Source: Opitutia bacterium ISCC 52
GTDB lineage: Bacteria; Verrucomicrobiota; Verrucomicrobiia; Opitutales; UBA2995
NCBI GenBank assembly: GCA_014529675.2
Contig: CP076040.1
Location: 3,677,894-3,741,893 of the forward strand
Length of the DNA stretch: 64,000 bases
Reading direction: 5' to 3'
Both the position numbers and the translations under genes were made by a program. Of the stretch, positions 6,108-64,000 are shown piece by piece. A model generated the notes under the pieces. The model was not told the DNA's origin and did not search any database. It saw only the letters and a list, made by a program, of their open reading frames with translations. The stretch's first letter is position 1; every line of letters begins with the position of its first letter.

Positions 6108-7136
6108 ATGGCAACTGAAACGATCGAAGAAAACCCGCTGACCAAAAAAGACTTTGTTACACCCAATGATGTTCGTTGGTGTCCAGGTTGCGGCGATTAC
6201 GCCATCCTGAACTCACTACAGCGCACATTGCCCGAACTGGGAATCCCCAAGGAGGACTACGTGGTTGTAAGTGGAATTGGCTGCTCTAGCCGTTTCCCCT
6301 ACTATATGAATACCTATGGATTCCACACCATTCATGGTCGTGCTCCAACGGTAGCAACAGGAGTCAAGGTGGCCAATCCGGATCTTAGCGTTTGGATGAT
6401 CACCGGCGATGGTGACGGACTCAGTATTGGTGGTAACCACCTGATGCATGCGCTTCGCCGCAACATCAATATCAACATCCTCCTTTTCAACAACCGGGTC
6501 TACGGCCTGACCAAGGGGCAATACAGCCCTACTTCACCTGTTGGCACCCGCACCAAGACCACTCCGACCGGCTCTATTGATAATCCGCTGAACCCCATCC
6601 TCTTTGCATTAGGCGCCGAAGCTACTTTCATTGCTCGCACGATTGACACCAATCCGAAGCATATGATCGAAACCTTCAAAGCGGCTCAGGCACACAACGG
6701 TGTATCCTTCGTAGAGATCTTCCAAAACTGTGTCATCTTTAACAACAAGACCTGGGACCCTGTATACGGACGCCGATCGCGAGACGACAATATGCTCTTC
6801 TTAAAAGAAGGCGAACCCATGGTTTTCGGCAAAGAAGAGAAAAAAGGTATTGTTTGGAATGGCAATCAACCAGAGGTAATTCCCCTGGGAGACGCATCTC
6901 CTGAAGAAAAAGGGGTCATGATTCACACACCTGATCGCCCTGGATCCCTTTACCCCGCCATGCTGGCTGAAATGACCCATCCTGAATTCCCAACCCCGGT
7001 CGGAACCCTTCGTCAGGTTGAAAAACCGACCTATGACGCACAGATTCAAAATCAGGTCCAAGAAGCGATAGACAGCCAGGACGGAAAGCCCGATTTACAA
7101 GGCTTGGTAAACGGCGCCAATACCTGGACAATCTAG
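6108..7136 (+). CDS. korB: 2-oxoacid:ferredoxin oxidoreductase, beta subunit
   Basis: 342 residues. The cluster-binding 'WCPGCGDY' near residue 25, 'GIGCSSRFPYY', and the thiamine diphosphate/Mg binding 'GDGDGLSIGGNH' followed by 'NINILLFNNRVYGLTKGQ' identify the beta subunit. A further cysteine in 'EIFQNCVIFN' completes the usual Fe-S ligand set. It forms the catalytic thiamine- and 4Fe-4S-bearing partner of KorA. The start has a GGAG about 13 bp upstream. A terminator follows within 60 bp, so korAB is a two-gene operon. The presence of ferredoxin-linked KorAB suggests low-potential ferredoxin metabolism or replacement of the NAD-linked dehydrogenase complex. Confidence 0.88.
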   Translation: MATETIEENPLTKKDFVTPNDVRWCPGCGDYAILNSLQRTLPELGIPKEDYVVVSGIGCSSRFPYYMNTYGFHTIHGRAPTVATGVKVANPDLSVWMITGDGDGLSIGGNHLMHALRRNININILLFNNRVYGLTKGQYSPTSPVGTRTKTTPTGSIDNPLNPILFALGAEATFIARTIDTNPKHMIETFKAAQAHNGVSFVEIFQNCVIFNNKTWDPVYGRRSRDDNMLFLKEGEPMVFGKEEKKGIVWNGNQPEVIPLGDASPEEKGVMIHTPDRPGSLYPAMLAEMTHPEFPTPVGTLRQVEKPTYDAQIQNQVQEAIDSQDGKPDLQGLVNGANTWTI

Positions 7137-46948: not shown

Positions 46949-47824
46949 ATGCGTTTCCAAAGATCATTCATTTACCTAAGTTTTCTAACGGTTCTTTTGA
47001 GCCCTTTGATGGCCTTGTCCAAACCGAGGGTGATTGTATCGATTCCACCACAAAAAGGCTTCATTGAAGCCTTGGTAGGGGAGGCTGTGGATATCCAAGT
47101 GCTATTACAGCCAGGACAAAACCCGACAAATTTTGCCCTAAGCCCTAGACAGCTAAGAGAACTCTCAGAAGCCGAAGCTTATTTCTCTGTGGGTGCACCT
47201 ATGGAGGATTTTATTCTGCCACGCATTGAATCTAATTATCCTGACATTCGAATAATCGATACGAGTGCCGGCATCCGGAAACGTAGTTTGGAAGACCACT
47301 CACATGACGGAGATCACCATGAGCATGCTCATTCACACGTCGCCGATCCTCATGTATGGCTAAGCCCTGGATTGGTAAAGATTCAGCTACGTCACTACAG
47401 TCGCACCCTCAAGGAACTGTTACCTGAGCTCGGTTCCGACATCGATCTACGAGCCTCACAATTTCTATCTGAAGTTGACCTGGTAGACAAAGAGTTAGCG
47501 AACCAACTTAAAGGACTAAAAGGCACAAACATTTTTGTTTACCATCCTGCATTCGGCTACTTCTTGGAACGTTATGGACTTCGTCAGGAAACCGTCGAAA
47601 TCCGTGGAAAACAACCCAGTCCACAACAGATTAAAAGGTTGATAGAGCATGCCAAAGAACAGCAGGTAAAAGTAATTTTCGTTCAACCACAATTTCGAAG
47701 ACATTCAGCACAAGCATTAGCAAAGGCCATCGGAGGGACCGTCGAAATCATTGATCCTCTCGCTGAAAATTACTTGGACAACCTCAGGCACATGGGAGAG
47801 ACCATTGCCAAGAGCTACCGTTAA
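46949..47824 (+). CDS. znuA: Zinc/manganese ABC transporter, periplasmic binding protein
   Basis: 291 residues with a signal peptide ('MRFQRSFIYLSFLTVLLSPLMALS'). The cluster A-I fold shows 'QVLLQPGQNPTNFALSPRQLREL', a His-rich mobile loop 'DHSHDGDHHEHAHSH' (about residues 117-131) typical of zinc-binding ZnuA, the ligand region 'DPHVWLSP', and 'FVYHPAFGYFLERYGL'. It captures Zn(II), or Mn(II), in the periplasm and hands it to ZnuB. It is the first gene of a three-gene transporter operon. I found no clear Zur box in the 56 bp upstream. Confidence 0.85.
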   Translation: MRFQRSFIYLSFLTVLLSPLMALSKPRVIVSIPPQKGFIEALVGEAVDIQVLLQPGQNPTNFALSPRQLRELSEAEAYFSVGAPMEDFILPRIESNYPDIRIIDTSAGIRKRSLEDHSHDGDHHEHAHSHVADPHVWLSPGLVKIQLRHYSRTLKELLPELGSDIDLRASQFLSEVDLVDKELANQLKGLKGTNIFVYHPAFGYFLERYGLRQETVEIRGKQPSPQQIKRLIEHAKEQQVKVIFVQPQFRRHSAQALAKAIGGTVEIIDPLAENYLDNLRHMGETIAKSYR

Positions 47825-47827
47825 TTC

Positions 47828-48586
47828 ATGGCTGATTCGAATCCACTGGTTTGTTTTAAAAAGGTTTCCCTATCGTATGGGAACAACCATGTGCTTTGCG
47901 ATGCAGACTTCGATATCGAAGCCGGTGAGCCCCTCTGTGTAGTCGGTCCCAATGGCGGAGGAAAAACAACGCTTCTGAAATTGATCCTTGGGCTTAAACA
48001 ACCCGATTCAGGATCTATCACCGTATTAGGATCCGCCCCAGACAAAGCAAGAGGTCAGGTCGGATACATGCCACAAGTTCTTGAGTTTGATCCTAAGTTC
48101 CCGATCACGGTCGAAGAAGTGATTGGAATGGGAATGCTAACATCGGGATTCGGTGGTTTTAGAAAAGCTAAAAACCGGCAACAGATCCAAGATGCGATGG
48201 ATGCAGTGGACATTAATCATCGGGCTGATGAACAGTTTTCCGCATTATCAGGAGGACAGAAACAGCGATCGCTTATTGCACGCGCGATGGTCTCCAAGCC
48301 GGCATTGCTACTACTAGATGAACCGACAGCCAATCTGGACCTTACTTTAGAAGACAAGCTGTTGGAGACATTGCTACAATTCCACTCAGATATGAAAATC
48401 GTGATGGTCTCTCATGACCTTGGGTTTGTTTCAGGTGCCGTTAAGCAGGTGCTCTGCGTAAATAAGCATGTCCACACCCACCCTACCGAATCGATTTCAG
48501 CAGAGCTGGTTGAAGAACTCTATGGAGCCAGTCCACGGCGTATCTTGCATGCGTCGGATTTGGGGCATGACCATCACCATCACTAA
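47828..48586 (+). CDS. znuC: Zinc/manganese ABC transporter, ATP-binding protein
   Basis: 252 residues. Walker A 'VVGPNGGGKTTLLKLILG', the ABC signature 'FSALSGGQKQRSLIARAM', Walker B 'LLLLDEPTANLD', and the switch His in 'MVSHDLG' are all present. The C-terminus ends with a histidine tail ('LGHDHHHH') that may bind metal. It drives import through ZnuB. It starts 4 bp after znuA, and its stop codon overlaps the znuB start by one base. Confidence 0.9.
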   Translation: MADSNPLVCFKKVSLSYGNNHVLCDADFDIEAGEPLCVVGPNGGGKTTLLKLILGLKQPDSGSITVLGSAPDKARGQVGYMPQVLEFDPKFPITVEEVIGMGMLTSGFGGFRKAKNRQQIQDAMDAVDINHRADEQFSALSGGQKQRSLIARAMVSKPALLLLDEPTANLDLTLEDKLLETLLQFHSDMKIVMVSHDLGFVSGAVKQVLCVNKHVHTHPTESISAELVEELYGASPRRILHASDLGHDHHHH

Positions 48587-49422
48587 TGGGATCTCTGGGA
48601 GACATATTTTTTGACGACTCACTTTCCTTTATGAGTCAGGCCCTCCTACTGGGATTATTAGCGAGTATTCCTTTCGGGACCATGGGGAGCCTAGTCGTTG
48701 CCAGGCGGATAAGCTATCTCGCAGCAGCGATTGCCCATGCCGTATTGGGCGGTATCGGTTTCTCGTTGTTTGCGAAACATCAATGGGAATGGACTTGGAT
48801 TCAGCCACTCACAGGTGCTCTGATGGTAGGAATACTGGCCGCGCTGCTTGTAGGCTGGATTAGCATCAAGCATCGGGCATACGAGGATACTTTGATCGGT
48901 GCCATCTGGTCGCTAGGCATGGCGATAGGCTTGTTGTTTATTTTCAAAACGCCCCAGTACGTGGATCCAATGAGTTATCTTTTCGGAGATATTTTAATGA
49001 TCTCCTCAGTAGACATAACGCTTGTTCTGGTACTCTGCGCAATCGTTGTTGGATTTGTGATTTATAGCTATCAGCCTTTGGTTGCACTCTGTTTTGATGA
49101 AGAGTTCGCCAAGCTGCGAGGCATTCAAACGACCTCTCTCTATTTGCTGACCTTGTGCCTGGTCGCAATTACCATCGTTTTTTTAGTGAGCATGGTGGGG
49201 GTCATCCTCGTAATTGCTCTATTAAGCTTACCGGCTGCTATGGCTGGACTCTTTTCGAGAAAACTTTGGCAGATGATGGTAGGAGGGACGGTGATCTGTA
49301 TGCTCTTCACATTTTTGGGAACGTGGCTGAGTTATTCATGGGATCTCCCTACGGGCCCGTTCATCATCTTACTATGCGGTATCAGCTACCTTTTGATGCT
49401 GATCCTGAAAAAAGCGCGATAG
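48586..49422 (+). CDS. znuB: Zinc/manganese ABC transporter, permease
   Basis: 278 residues with eight or nine hydrophobic helices, beginning 'FMSQALLLGLLASIPFGTMG' and including 'MVARRISYLAAAIAHAVLGG'-type (here 'VVARRISYLAAAIAHAVLGGIG') and 'LLFIFKTPQYVDPMSYLFGDI'. These are the marks of the ZnuB/MntB/TroC permease family (ABC-3). It sits in the inner membrane and translocates the metal. It ends the transporter operon; the following 126 bp contain two dyads and no gene. Confidence 0.88.
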   Translation: MGSLGDIFFDDSLSFMSQALLLGLLASIPFGTMGSLVVARRISYLAAAIAHAVLGGIGFSLFAKHQWEWTWIQPLTGALMVGILAALLVGWISIKHRAYEDTLIGAIWSLGMAIGLLFIFKTPQYVDPMSYLFGDILMISSVDITLVLVLCAIVVGFVIYSYQPLVALCFDEEFAKLRGIQTTSLYLLTLCLVAITIVFLVSMVGVILVIALLSLPAAMAGLFSRKLWQMMVGGTVICMLFTFLGTWLSYSWDLPTGPFIILLCGISYLLMLILKKAR

Positions 49423-49451: not shown

Positions 49452-49467
49452 ATGACAGAATTGTCAT
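49452..49467. promoter_or_regulatory. Dyad upstream of the YHYH operon (1)
   Basis: ATGACA-GAAT-TGTCAT (49452-49467), a 6-4-6 palindrome 97 bp upstream of the YHYH gene start and 30 bp after znuB. It could be an operator for the YHYH operon. Confidence 0.35.
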
Positions 49468-49494
49468 GAACTAGTGTCACTTTTGTTCATCAAA

Positions 49495-49512
49495 ATACCG
49501 TTATATCGGTAT
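49495..49512. promoter_or_regulatory. Dyad upstream of the YHYH operon (2)
   Basis: ATACCG-TTATAT-CGGTAT (49495-49512), a 6-6-6 palindrome 37 bp upstream of the YHYH gene start; its AT-rich centre may also be a -10 region. Two dyads in 60 bp suggest a regulated promoter. Confidence 0.35.
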
Positions 49513-49548
49513 ACGCAAACGCCTCCTAGTGATCCAACACCCATCGTC

Positions 49549-50487
49549 ATGTTAGTTTTCTCCAAAGTATTTCTGATATTCCTGTTATGTCATTCCCTTC
49601 TATTCGTTTACGTATTCGGACAGGATGAAACGAGCCTGAGCGTAGAATCCGATGAAGAAGGATCGGTCAACCTGACCCTTTCAGGAGAAGAAGGCACGTT
49701 TTGGACCATTCAACGATCCACAGAGCTTTTCGATTGGGAAAATGTTACCAGTGCTGAGCAGGTAGAAATCGGCAACGATGGTCGCATAAACTTTAATTTG
49801 ACTCTGACTGAACTCCCCAAGGTTTTTTACCGTGCCTTCGAAGACGATGGTATACCCGCCGCTTTCAAGTTATTCGATGAGAAGATGGAGATGTATATCG
49901 ATGGCGACTACATGGTCATTGAATCAGACAATGTTCCCAACCACCCAAGCCCTTATTTTTCAAACAGTGATTCCCGTTATGAGGCCTACAACGGAAGCAA
50001 TAATCAAAACCCTAACAACATCGACGAACAAACGTTCGTCTATAGAATCCCGCTCAAACCGAGCGAAGCCACCAATAAGTCCAACACCAATCTAGGGTCT
50101 ATTGGTATCGCGATCAACGGAGTCTCCTTGTTTAATCAATATGCTGGGCCCAACAATCAATCCCTGACCAACGAGATAAATAGTTTCGATCAATACAACG
50201 GTCACCCACAACGCACAGGGGTATACCATTATCACTTTGAGCCGATCTACTTATCATCCGAACATGGCCGAGGAGCCTTTCTTGGATTCCTACTGGATGG
50301 CTTCCCAGTCTATGGTCCGGAAGAAAACGGGGTGATGCTAACCAGCGATGATTTGGATGAATACCACGGCCATTTCGGAATCACTCCAGAATACCCTGAT
50401 GAGATCTATCACTACCATTTCACAGAAGATGACCCTTATCTAAACGGGGGCCAATTCTTTGGAACTCCGGGAACGCAAACCAACTAG
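49549..50487 (+). CDS. YHYH-domain protein, secreted
   Basis: About 312 residues from the ATG at 49549; a start at 49474 would add a non-signal tail. A signal peptide is visible ('MLVFSKVFLIFLLCHSLLFVYVFG'). A first domain (about 30-105) has the 'TIQRSTELFDWENV' pattern seen in many Verrucomicrobial exoproteins. The YHYH domain follows, with 'GIAINGVSLFN', the metal-like 'GVYHYHFEPIYL' and a repeat 'IYHYHFTEDDPY', plus 'LLDGFPVYGPEE'. The function of YHYH domains is unknown; their His pairs suggest metal binding. It is the first gene of an operon with a YwqK-like and an SCO protein. Confidence 0.75.
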   Translation: MLVFSKVFLIFLLCHSLLFVYVFGQDETSLSVESDEEGSVNLTLSGEEGTFWTIQRSTELFDWENVTSAEQVEIGNDGRINFNLTLTELPKVFYRAFEDDGIPAAFKLFDEKMEMYIDGDYMVIESDNVPNHPSPYFSNSDSRYEAYNGSNNQNPNNIDEQTFVYRIPLKPSEATNKSNTNLGSIGIAINGVSLFNQYAGPNNQSLTNEINSFDQYNGHPQRTGVYHYHFEPIYLSSEHGRGAFLGFLLDGFPVYGPEENGVMLTSDDLDEYHGHFGITPEYPDEIYHYHFTEDDPYLNGGQFFGTPGTQTN

Positions 50488-50491
50488 TATC

Positions 50492-51043
50492 ATGCAACGC
50501 TCGTTCCTTACATGGTTGATAATTACCTTATGGTTACCCGTTTTCGGAAGCGGTGAGCTTTCGCTTACAATCGGAACCGAGGGCCTGGTTCGCAAACAAG
50601 GACTCATGGTTTATAACAATGAGCTTCTTTCAGGTTATACCTACGACCTCTACACCAACGGTAATATAAAGCTGAAGACCCATTGGGTGAATGGTAAGCG
50701 CCACGGGAAACAACTCAGTTGGTTTGAGAATGGTAAGATCAAAGAAATCCGTTTCTACAGAAACAATCGAAAGGATGGCCAACACCAAGGATGGTTTGCG
50801 GACAGCACACCGCGGTTTGAATACCATTTCATCGACGGCCAGTATCATGGGAGCTCTAAAGAATGGTATCCCGATGGGTCGATTGCTTCGGAACACAATT
50901 ACGAAATGGGAAAAGAGGTAGGAGCTCAAAAAGTGTATGAAGCCAATGGACAAATTCGCGCTAACTATGTCGTAAAAGACGGTTACCGTTACGGACTCGT
51001 TGGATCCAAAAATTGTATCACTTCACCCACTGCCCAGCTATGA
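50492..51043 (+). CDS. YwqK-like MORN-repeat protein, secreted
   Basis: 183 residues from the ATG at 50492, 4 bp after the YHYH stop. A signal peptide ('MQRSFLTWLIITLWLPVFGSG') is followed by MORN-type repeats: 'YDLYTNGNIKLKTHWVNGKRHG', 'SWFENGKIKEIRFYRNNRKDG', 'YHFIDGQYHGSSKEWYPDGS', each with the GxxHG-type turn. It ends 'YRYGLVGSKNCITSP' with a lone cysteine. Such proteins are called YwqK antitoxins by annotation, but no toxin is present and this is a periplasmic operon protein. The stop overlaps the SCO start by 4 bp (ATGA). Confidence 0.7.
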   Translation: MQRSFLTWLIITLWLPVFGSGELSLTIGTEGLVRKQGLMVYNNELLSGYTYDLYTNGNIKLKTHWVNGKRHGKQLSWFENGKIKEIRFYRNNRKDGQHQGWFADSTPRFEYHFIDGQYHGSSKEWYPDGSIASEHNYEMGKEVGAQKVYEANGQIRANYVVKDGYRYGLVGSKNCITSPTAQL

Positions 51044-51687
51044 GAGTACGACCCTTATTATTTTTCGCGGTCCTGGCATTTGGCGGAATTGTTAGAGGAG
51101 AAGCATCAGCCACGCGTCTCCCCTACTACACCGAACCCACATTTACCCCTCGATGGTTTGATGAAATGCCAGAGGATCTGCACGAAATCCCATCCTTCTC
51201 GTTAACGGACCAATCTGGGCAAACGATCAATCAAGAGCAGCTCAAAGGAAATATATACATAGCCAACTTTTTCTTCACGGCCTGTCCAGGGATCTGCCCT
51301 AAAATGACAGCTAATCTACAGGGCATACAGAGGTCATTTGCTAATGAACCTCACGTAAAGATCCTTTCGCACAGCGTTGCACCCGGAGTAGATACGGTGA
51401 AGCAGCTCAAGGATTACGCCGAACGGAACGAAATAGATGGAACGAAGTGGCACCTACTCACCGGCTCACAGGATTCAATTTATACCTTGGCAAGGAAGTC
51501 TTATTTTGCGGATAAAGCTATTGGCTTCAACAAGAGCACGAAGGAATTCCTTCACACAGAGAACTTCCTGCTTATCGACTCCGAGGGAAGAATTCGAGGA
51601 GTATACAATGGCATCCGATCCTTGGATATGCAAAGGCTTACCACTGATATCCACACGCTGCTAAAGGAAACGAAGGCTAATTCATAA
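51040..51687 (+). CDS. SCO1/SenC family protein
   Basis: About 215 residues from the ATG at 51040. A signal peptide ('MRVRPLLFFAVLAFGGIVRGEA') is followed by a thioredoxin-like fold: 'IPSFSLTDQSGQTIN', the copper-binding CxxxC in 'FFTACPGICPKMTANL', and a third ligand His in 'FLHTENFLLIDSEG'. SCO proteins deliver copper or act as thiol reductants for cytochrome oxidase subunit II. It ends the YHYH-YwqK-SCO operon. A second SCO-like gene lies at the window's end, and no cytochrome oxidase gene is present. Confidence 0.85.
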   Translation: MRVRPLLFFAVLAFGGIVRGEASATRLPYYTEPTFTPRWFDEMPEDLHEIPSFSLTDQSGQTINQEQLKGNIYIANFFFTACPGICPKMTANLQGIQRSFANEPHVKILSHSVAPGVDTVKQLKDYAERNEIDGTKWHLLTGSQDSIYTLARKSYFADKAIGFNKSTKEFLHTENFLLIDSEGRIRGVYNGIRSLDMQRLTTDIHTLLKETKANS

Positions 51688-63613: not shown

Positions 63614-64000
63614 CTAGTTCCAGCCTTTGAGCATCACCTCAAGTCGATTGTATACGTCTTCTAATTTCCATCGCGTTCCAGGAATACGATGAAAGATCTT
63701 TCCTTGCGTATCCAAAACCAAGACCACCATGGAGTGGTTGAGAATGGTTTTTTCACTCGGAGCGACGACAACGCCGACCTGCTTGGTAAGATAGTCTAAA
63801 GTTTTCTTAGACCCTGTAAGCATCCAATACCCCCCATGATCGACACTCCGCTCGTCTAAGAATTCGTAGCACAATCCAGGCGTATCAAACTCTGGATCCA
63901 GACTGACAGATACCAAACACACTGAATCCGCCAATCCTGCGGCTTCTAGTTTATCCTGCAATTCTGCCATGCGATCAGCCGTGGCTGGACTCATCGAAGG
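63614..64000 (-). CDS. SCO-family protein, truncated by window end
   Basis: Partial, running past the window edge. The visible C-terminal ~127 residues show the thioredoxin-like fold of SCO1/SenC: 'VCLVSVSLDPEFDTP', 'WMLTGSKKTLDYL', the ligand His in 'TILNHSMVVLVLDTQGKIF', and a closing 'LEDVYNRLEVML'. The CxxxC motif would lie in the unseen part. The 'MSPATADRM' segment at the visible start corresponds to the 'CPTTTARM'-type region just after the CxxxC of SCO proteins. It is the second SCO paralogue of the window. Confidence 0.75.
   Translation of the reverse strand, partial: PSMSPATADRMAELQDKLEAAGLADSVCLVSVSLDPEFDTPGLCYEFLDERSVDHGGYWMLTGSKKTLDYLTKQVGVVVAPSEKTILNHSMVVLVLDTQGKIFHRIPGTRWKLEDVYNRLEVMLKGWN

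Follow-up and report, generated by a model that had tools for sequence, protein, structure and literature searches.

The YHYH-MORN_2-SCO locus

The window, by which we mean the whole stretch of 64,000 nucleotides that was analyzed, contains three genes in a row on the plus strand for a YHYH protein, a MORN_2 repeat protein and an SCO1/SenC protein, referred to below as the trio. A sequence-only reading had proposed that genes of these three families adjoin or overlap here, and this was confirmed by the open reading frames and by Pfam scores over the cut-offs. The features of the locus are as follows.

46949..49422, plus strand: zinc-uptake-type ABC operon (ZnuA, ATPase, ABC-3 permease), the upstream neighbor
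49452..49467, no strand: dyad 1, ATGACA-N4-TGTCAT, a putative operator, unproven
49495..49512, no strand: dyad 2, ATACCG-N6-CGGTAT, a putative operator, unproven
49549..50487, plus strand: YHYH protein (PF14240), exported, 312 aa; Pfam 89.4 bits, cut-off 25
50492..51043, plus strand: MORN_2/YwqK-like repeat protein, 183 aa; PF07661 51.7 bits, cut-off 29.6
51040..51687, plus strand: SCO1/SenC protein, 215 aa; PF02630 95.4 bits, cut-off 22.8

The YHYH and MORN_2 genes are spaced by 4 nt and the MORN_2 and SCO genes overlap by 4 nt (ATGA), so that coupled translation of the trio is likely. All three window proteins have a hydrophobic, signal-peptide-like N-terminus as judged by eye, and lipoprotein-like cysteines are found at the N-termini of the copies from Persicobacter. 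We chose the start of the YHYH gene ourselves: although the reading frame extends upstream to GTG 49474, it is ATG 49549 that opens the signal-peptide-like stretch. If GTG 49474 were the start, dyad 2 would fall within the gene. A 4'-phosphopantetheinyl transferase gene lies downstream of the trio.

Conservation and spread of the trio

Relatives were drawn from genome contigs, from genomes of the same family, order, class and phylum, and from plasmids; phyla beyond Verrucomicrobiota were reached via the plasmid collection only, and several carrier genomes are split into many contigs. The contig scan, by short exact peptides, confirmed 3 loci. The trio occurs in the same order and on the same strand in all ten carriers, eight from Opitutales and two on Persicobacter plasmids (Bacteroidota), and the gene order read from the window thus recurs in another phylum. 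The carriers are the window (G000), G007 (L139, where the YHYH gene is truncated by the contig end), L018, G283 (L053, whose length suggests that it is the contig of L020), G215 (L054), G268 (L055), G248 (L056), G833 (L313) and the Persicobacter plasmids L090 and L091. Across these carriers the gene junctions range from an overlap up to a separation of 197 nt.

Profile searches of 387 Verrucomicrobiota genomes found all three proteins in the same five genomes (G000, G215, G248, G268 and G283), at 508-550 bits for YHYH, 255-295 bits for MORN and 341-358 bits for SCO, scores that are high partly by construction because the profiles (A1-A3) include carriers. No such effect of construction explains the gap to the next best scores, which are 92, 78 and 151 bits, respectively, or the fact that the three lists agree. 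At the limits used, the full match lists hold 32 (YHYH), 40 (MORN) and 30 (SCO) of the 387 genomes, and at E 1e-60 the YHYH profile matches 7 of 372 genomes of the order. G007 also has a lone gene of the YHYH subfamily, without MORN and SCO genes on its 9.4-kb contig (L314). Overall, the trio is a rare yet real conserved unit, and apart from this extra G007 gene it was not seen split. None of 30 other YHYH loci with flanks (L059-L069, L071-L089) has an SCO or MORN profile match. A MORN-profile match adjoining the YHYH gene of L050 has no Pfam match and was not counted.

A phage origin was considered and set aside. Among the matches listed, 119 of 127 viral loci, which were fetched by YHYH motif patterns, have a YHYH open reading frame and none has an SCO or MORN profile match; scans with profiles A1 and A3 found no relative.

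In a tree of 51 bacterial YHYH domains, a set that omits partial and duplicate frames and those of at least 900 aa (including the contig-cut L139 row), the nine rows from operons group together with the solitary G007 gene at an SH-aLRT support of 99. The Persicobacter rows nest within those of Opitutales, with lower support, 84 and 90. Similarly, the ten operon rows form one group in a tree of 30 SCO proteins (support 96), adjacent to SCO proteins from Pontibacter and Spirosoma plasmids (SH-aLRT 93), and the other SCO proteins of the window genome fall apart from them on very long branches. Both trees are quick searches without bootstraps, midpoint-rooted and with few sequences from outside the phylum. 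Taken together with the plasmid location and the transposase genes near the L091 copy, they suggest that the trio was likely transferred between phyla.

The upstream dyads and the zinc transporter operon

The sequence-only reading had placed two palindromes in the promoter of the operon. Both are indeed present: dyad 1 (ATGACAGAATTGTCAT, 49452-49467) has exact 6-bp arms and dyad 2 (ATACCGTTATATCGGTAT, 49495-49512) has 8 of 9 pairs matched. When the 126-bp gap was shuffled 5000 times with dinucleotides preserved, a mean of 0.21 exact 6-bp-arm dyads (spacer 0-8) was found, and two or more occurred in 1.9% of shuffles, a figure uncorrected for the dyads having been chosen after the fact, so that they are weak evidence. 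Neither dyad is found in the 300 bp upstream of eight other copies of the trio, where the closest likeness (ATTACAAATCTGTAAT, in L313) is off by 2 of 12 letters and indistinguishable from chance. Their proposed role as promoter elements of the trio therefore did not hold up.

Allowing one mismatch, dyad 1 has 22 sites in its own genome (1 exact) versus 2 for the backward pattern, and dyad 2 has 14 (2 exact) versus 7. The genomic excess of dyad 1 perhaps results from codon usage. Ten of the other genomic sites were read (five per dyad), and all lie within open frames of at least 100 codons. With these ten sites in open frames and eight other upstream regions lacking the dyads, a regulon is unsupported, and as operators the dyads are unproven candidates. 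Promoter-like sites between 48500 and 52500 are at chance level (6 versus 5.8 expected); terminator-like sites number 8 versus 3.8 expected.

The ZnuA, ABC ATPase and ABC-3 permease genes end 126 bp upstream of the trio on the same strand. It is therefore true of the window that the trio follows a zinc transporter operon, as had been noted, but tblastn with the window ZnuA and ZnuB gave no match in the loci of the nine other copies, two of which (L139 and L018) show little or no upstream DNA. ZnuC matched only ABC ATPases, in one of the nine loci (L313). A zinc link as a general feature of the trio was thus rejected as unsupported.

The YHYH protein

The YHYH protein consists of a small N-terminal domain followed by the YHYH domain from about residue 97, and the PF14240 match falls in two stretches. 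It had been described as His-rich, which is overstated for 10 histidines in 312 residues, but these histidines do sit in fixed motifs. D214, H219, H227, H229 and D250 are invariant in all 51 bacterial YHYH rows. In addition, H273, H275, H288 and H290 are each present in 9/9 operon rows, compared with 4, 15, 27 and 18, respectively, of 41 other rows; all four occur together in the nine operon rows, in the solitary G007 relative and in two of the 41 others. No operon row has a cysteine in the YHYH domain, versus at least one in 34 of the 41 others. In a mostly viral YHYH alignment, none of the histidine columns reaches 90% conservation.

A metal site of three histidines and one aspartate has been proposed for YHYH proteins (PMC7824862), and we take D214, H219, H227 and H229, all present here together with D250, to be the residues meant. 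AlphaFold2 models are of middling confidence, both for the full protein (mean pLDDT 63.5, pTM 0.59) and for the YHYH domain (mean pLDDT 67.6, pTM 0.71). A PDB fold search with the full-length and domain models gave no match at E 0.001, and VIA-align 2 with the domain model gave none at Z 2. Four viral models, of which three carry the name YHYH protein, match the YHYH model at E 0.001; as the match is to other predictions, this likeness would give no indication of function.

Some other YHYH genes deserve mention. In G833 (L313:6615-9104, minus strand) a sulfatase (PF00884, SGSH_C) carries the YHYH domain as a fusion on its C-terminal side, and the MORN and SCO genes follow; the activator of type I sulfatases, the formylglycine-generating enzyme, is described as copper-dependent (PMC4505483). 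The solitary G007 gene (L314:741-2882, minus strand) is divided between two frames, one with the N-terminal domain and the other with the repeats and the YHYH domain, and is either a broken gene or an assembly error. The window genome has a second YHYH gene (L070:6149-6766, minus strand; C1:551208-551741) from another part of the family, which seems N-terminally shortened (profile 18-193) and has an opposite frame with CxxCH beside it. On a Loktanella plasmid (L092:3229-6651) a pair of genes annotated as PEBP family, a possible other partner of YHYH, lies between two YHYH genes. In L063:3589-6656 (minus strand) and L067:5854-9228 (plus strand) the gene for a longer YHYH protein precedes one whose product begins with a twin-arginine-like signal, as judged by eye.

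The MORN_2 and SCO proteins

The MORN protein had been described as ending in GSKNC. The motif is near the end, with 8 residues after it, and in the form G[ST]KxC it is found in 5/5 operon proteins and 0/15 other MORN_2 proteins of the same match list. It is also present in the MORN proteins of L018, L090, L091, L313 and L139, the last read from the DNA.

The putative copper ligands of the window SCO, C82 and C86 (CxxxC) and H172, are retained in 10/10 operon copies. The same set is present in 18 or 19 of the other SCO proteins in the set of 30, and because most of these keep it, it marks the SCO family rather than the operon. PDB relatives of the window SCO include Bacillus subtilis Sco1 and other SCO proteins, and it also scores 27.1 bits with AhpC-TSA in Pfam, a thioredoxin-type relationship.

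The window genome has three further SCO genes: a CusF fusion, its neighbor on the other strand, and one located by ctaA and a UbiA-family (ctaB-like) gene. The CusF-SCO fusion (L140:5245-6123, plus strand) and its neighbor (6299-7042, minus strand) lie tail to tail. The ctaA-linked gene (window 63614-64000, minus strand, running past the window end; L141:3511-4374) lacks the CxxxC cysteines (FTRGKVPSMSP) with a histidine left, the sole SCO in the tree set without both cysteines. The usual mode of copper binding may therefore not apply to this oxidase-linked SCO.

Copper genes around the trio

The sequence-only reading had suggested that the trio may handle copper in the periplasm. No copper gene adjoins the window copy; it is the surroundings of several other carriers that favor this suggestion. 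An azurin/plastocyanin-family gene lies directly upstream on the same strand in L054 and L055, and 1.6 kb upstream, beyond an opposite-strand gene, in L056. It is the only PF00127 match in G215 (L054) and G268 (L055) and the best of five in G248 (L056). These loci belong to one genus, so the three cases may be one event. Further, a PF00127 gene is found somewhere in 29 of the 34 genomes searched in the order, comprising 7/7 carriers and 22/27 non-carriers. In L090 an AraC-type regulator gene precedes the trio, and genes for DUF3347, CusB-like and outer-membrane efflux proteins follow it on the opposite strand. Around L091 we saw transposase genes and no copper gene, and around L053 and L313 no firm copper gene, a YHS-like match by L053 being under its cut-off. 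The related Pontibacter SCO (L125) has RND efflux, DUF3347, heavy-metal-associated, four-helix copper-binding and P-type ATPase genes as neighbors.

In the periplasm, copper passes between SCO proteins and PCuAC (PMC7558416), and in the sco operon of Streptomyces lividans SCO is accompanied by a PCuAC-like gene, whose role there is called undefined (PMC3603459). PCuAC (PF04314) has no match in the window genome, and Pfam gave none for protein P0001. In total, none of the seven carriers searched has a match, but the value of this absence as an argument is weakened by the fact that 25 of 27 non-carriers also have none.

Comparison with known systems

The trio resembles the SCO/SenC and PCuAC pair (PccA; a relay for cytochrome oxidases and NosZ) in having an exported SCO with CxxxC and a distal histidine beside an exported, here putative, metal-binding partner in one operon. 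It differs in that the partner is YHYH instead of PCuAC and in that a third, MORN-repeat protein is added. The copper-efflux cluster on the Pontibacter actiniarum plasmid (L125) holds the SCO nearest to the operon group outside it, but that SCO is preceded by the gene of a short hypothetical protein (156 residues and a stop), neither YHYH nor MORN. The PF14240 domain is known from bacteria, phages and diatoms (for diatoms, PMC11992049). With phage and other bacterial members, the operon YHYH proteins share the Asp/His core and the DG, LD and YxY motifs, whereas they lack the middle of the profile (about 110-154) and domain cysteines and have H273, H275, H288 and H290 fixed. The MORN protein has MORN_2 repeats in common with the YwqK family; unlike that family it is exported, carries a C-terminal G[ST]KxC and has no toxin gene seen adjoining.

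In the open-licence literature searched, we found a function prediction and no functional study for YHYH, and no paper there was found with both 'SCO family protein' and 'MORN repeat'. A copper survey of Bizionia (Bacteroidota) names SCO and azurin proteins, and no YHYH was seen there. Judged from these searches of open-licence literature alone, the trio is apparently undescribed.

Alternative explanations

The YHYH protein could instead be a secreted metal-dependent hydrolase with zinc or another metal in its Asp/His core, the SCO and MORN proteins serving its maturation or anchoring and copper being incidental. A Zn2+ site of three histidines and an aspartate, in a metal-dependent hydrolase of phage tails, is predicted in PMC7824862, and both the invariance of D214, H219, H227, H229 and D250 in 51/51 bacterial rows and the sulfatase fusion in G833 are consistent with an enzyme. 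We nevertheless regard this as unlikely: a strict SCO partnership is hard to account for with a zinc enzyme, the operon subfamily has extra histidines and no cysteines, the histidines fall short of 90% conservation in the mostly viral alignment, and the published claim is a prediction rather than an assay. Slightly less likely still is a thiol-disulfide module, in which SCO would act as an oxidoreductase on the MORN cysteine or on a client and YHYH would be a client or metal cap. The distal histidine copper ligand is retained in 10/10 SCO copies, the operon YHYH domain has no cysteine and copper genes are near several trio copies, all of which argue against such a module, despite the thioredoxin-type relationship of SCO (AhpC-TSA 27.1 bits), the fixed MORN cysteine and the proposal that some SCO proteins are reductases (PMC7558416).

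The ZnuA/ABC/ABC-3 genes, on the same strand and with their end 126 bp before the trio, would fit a role of the trio in zinc homeostasis, coupled with that of the ZnuABC-type operon. The lack of a ZnuA/ZnuB match at nine other copies (two with little upstream DNA) makes this explanation highly improbable. That the MORN protein is an immunity protein or antitoxin of YwqK type and the trio a toxin system, as the naming of the family after Bacillus subtilis ywqJ-ywqK (PMC8321402) might suggest, seems to us scarcely credible. The MORN protein has a signal-peptide-like start and a C-terminal motif of its own, and its gene sits between YHYH and SCO in 10/10 carriers with no toxin gene adjoining, gene context being the only check made for a toxin.

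A proposed periplasmic copper relay

We favor, tentatively and a little short of calling it probable, the view that the trio is a translationally coupled operon and encodes a copper relay of the periplasm, with SCO served by the YHYH and MORN proteins. SCO would be the copper, and possibly also thiol, chaperone. The YHYH protein would be a histidine-based metal-binding partner that collects or passes on copper, in a PCuAC-like place beside SCO, and the MORN_2 protein a repeat scaffold whose fixed C-terminal cysteine may act as a thiol ligand or as a point of contact with SCO. The client may be a cupredoxin or other extracytoplasmic copper protein, or the module may serve copper tolerance; cytochrome oxidase alone is probably not the client, given that three more SCO-family genes are present in the genome. 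We infer the metal, the direction of transfer, the YHYH and MORN roles and the client from what was obtained here, namely the gene order, co-inheritance, conserved residues and the copper-gene context in some other carriers.

Counted in favor of the relay are the trio order in 10 carriers of two phyla, its presence in the same 5 of 387 genomes, the SCO CCH set (10/10), the YHYH D/H/H/H core with four fixed histidines and no cysteine, and the MORN G[ST]KxC motif (5/5 versus 0/15), along with the azurin genes at L054-L056, the Cus-like genes at L090, the related SCO in the Pontibacter copper-efflux cluster and the precedent of SCO-PCuAC copper relays, which are established in other systems (PMC7558416, PMC3603459). 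Against it we count that no copper gene lies by the window copy, that the azurin cases come from one genus and azurin genes are common in the order, that the L090 Cus-like genes are on the opposite strand and L091 has no copper gene, and that PCuAC absence carries little weight, as well as the zinc-hydrolase prediction for YHYH, the G833 sulfatase fusion and the middling models that match no solved fold.

It is possible, if somewhat doubtful, that the YHYH subfamily represents copper-binding chaperones of a new periplasmic type, which load or relieve SCO together with a one-cysteine MORN scaffold and which have been passed between phyla (plasmid-borne in Persicobacter) and fused to a sulfatase in G833. 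If true, SCO would have yet another kind of partner in addition to PCuAC and the TlpA-type reductases. The strict SCO operon ties one YHYH subfamily to a concrete, testable metal, partner and compartment, and would add an unfamiliar set of SCO partners in bacteria where PCuAC was not found.
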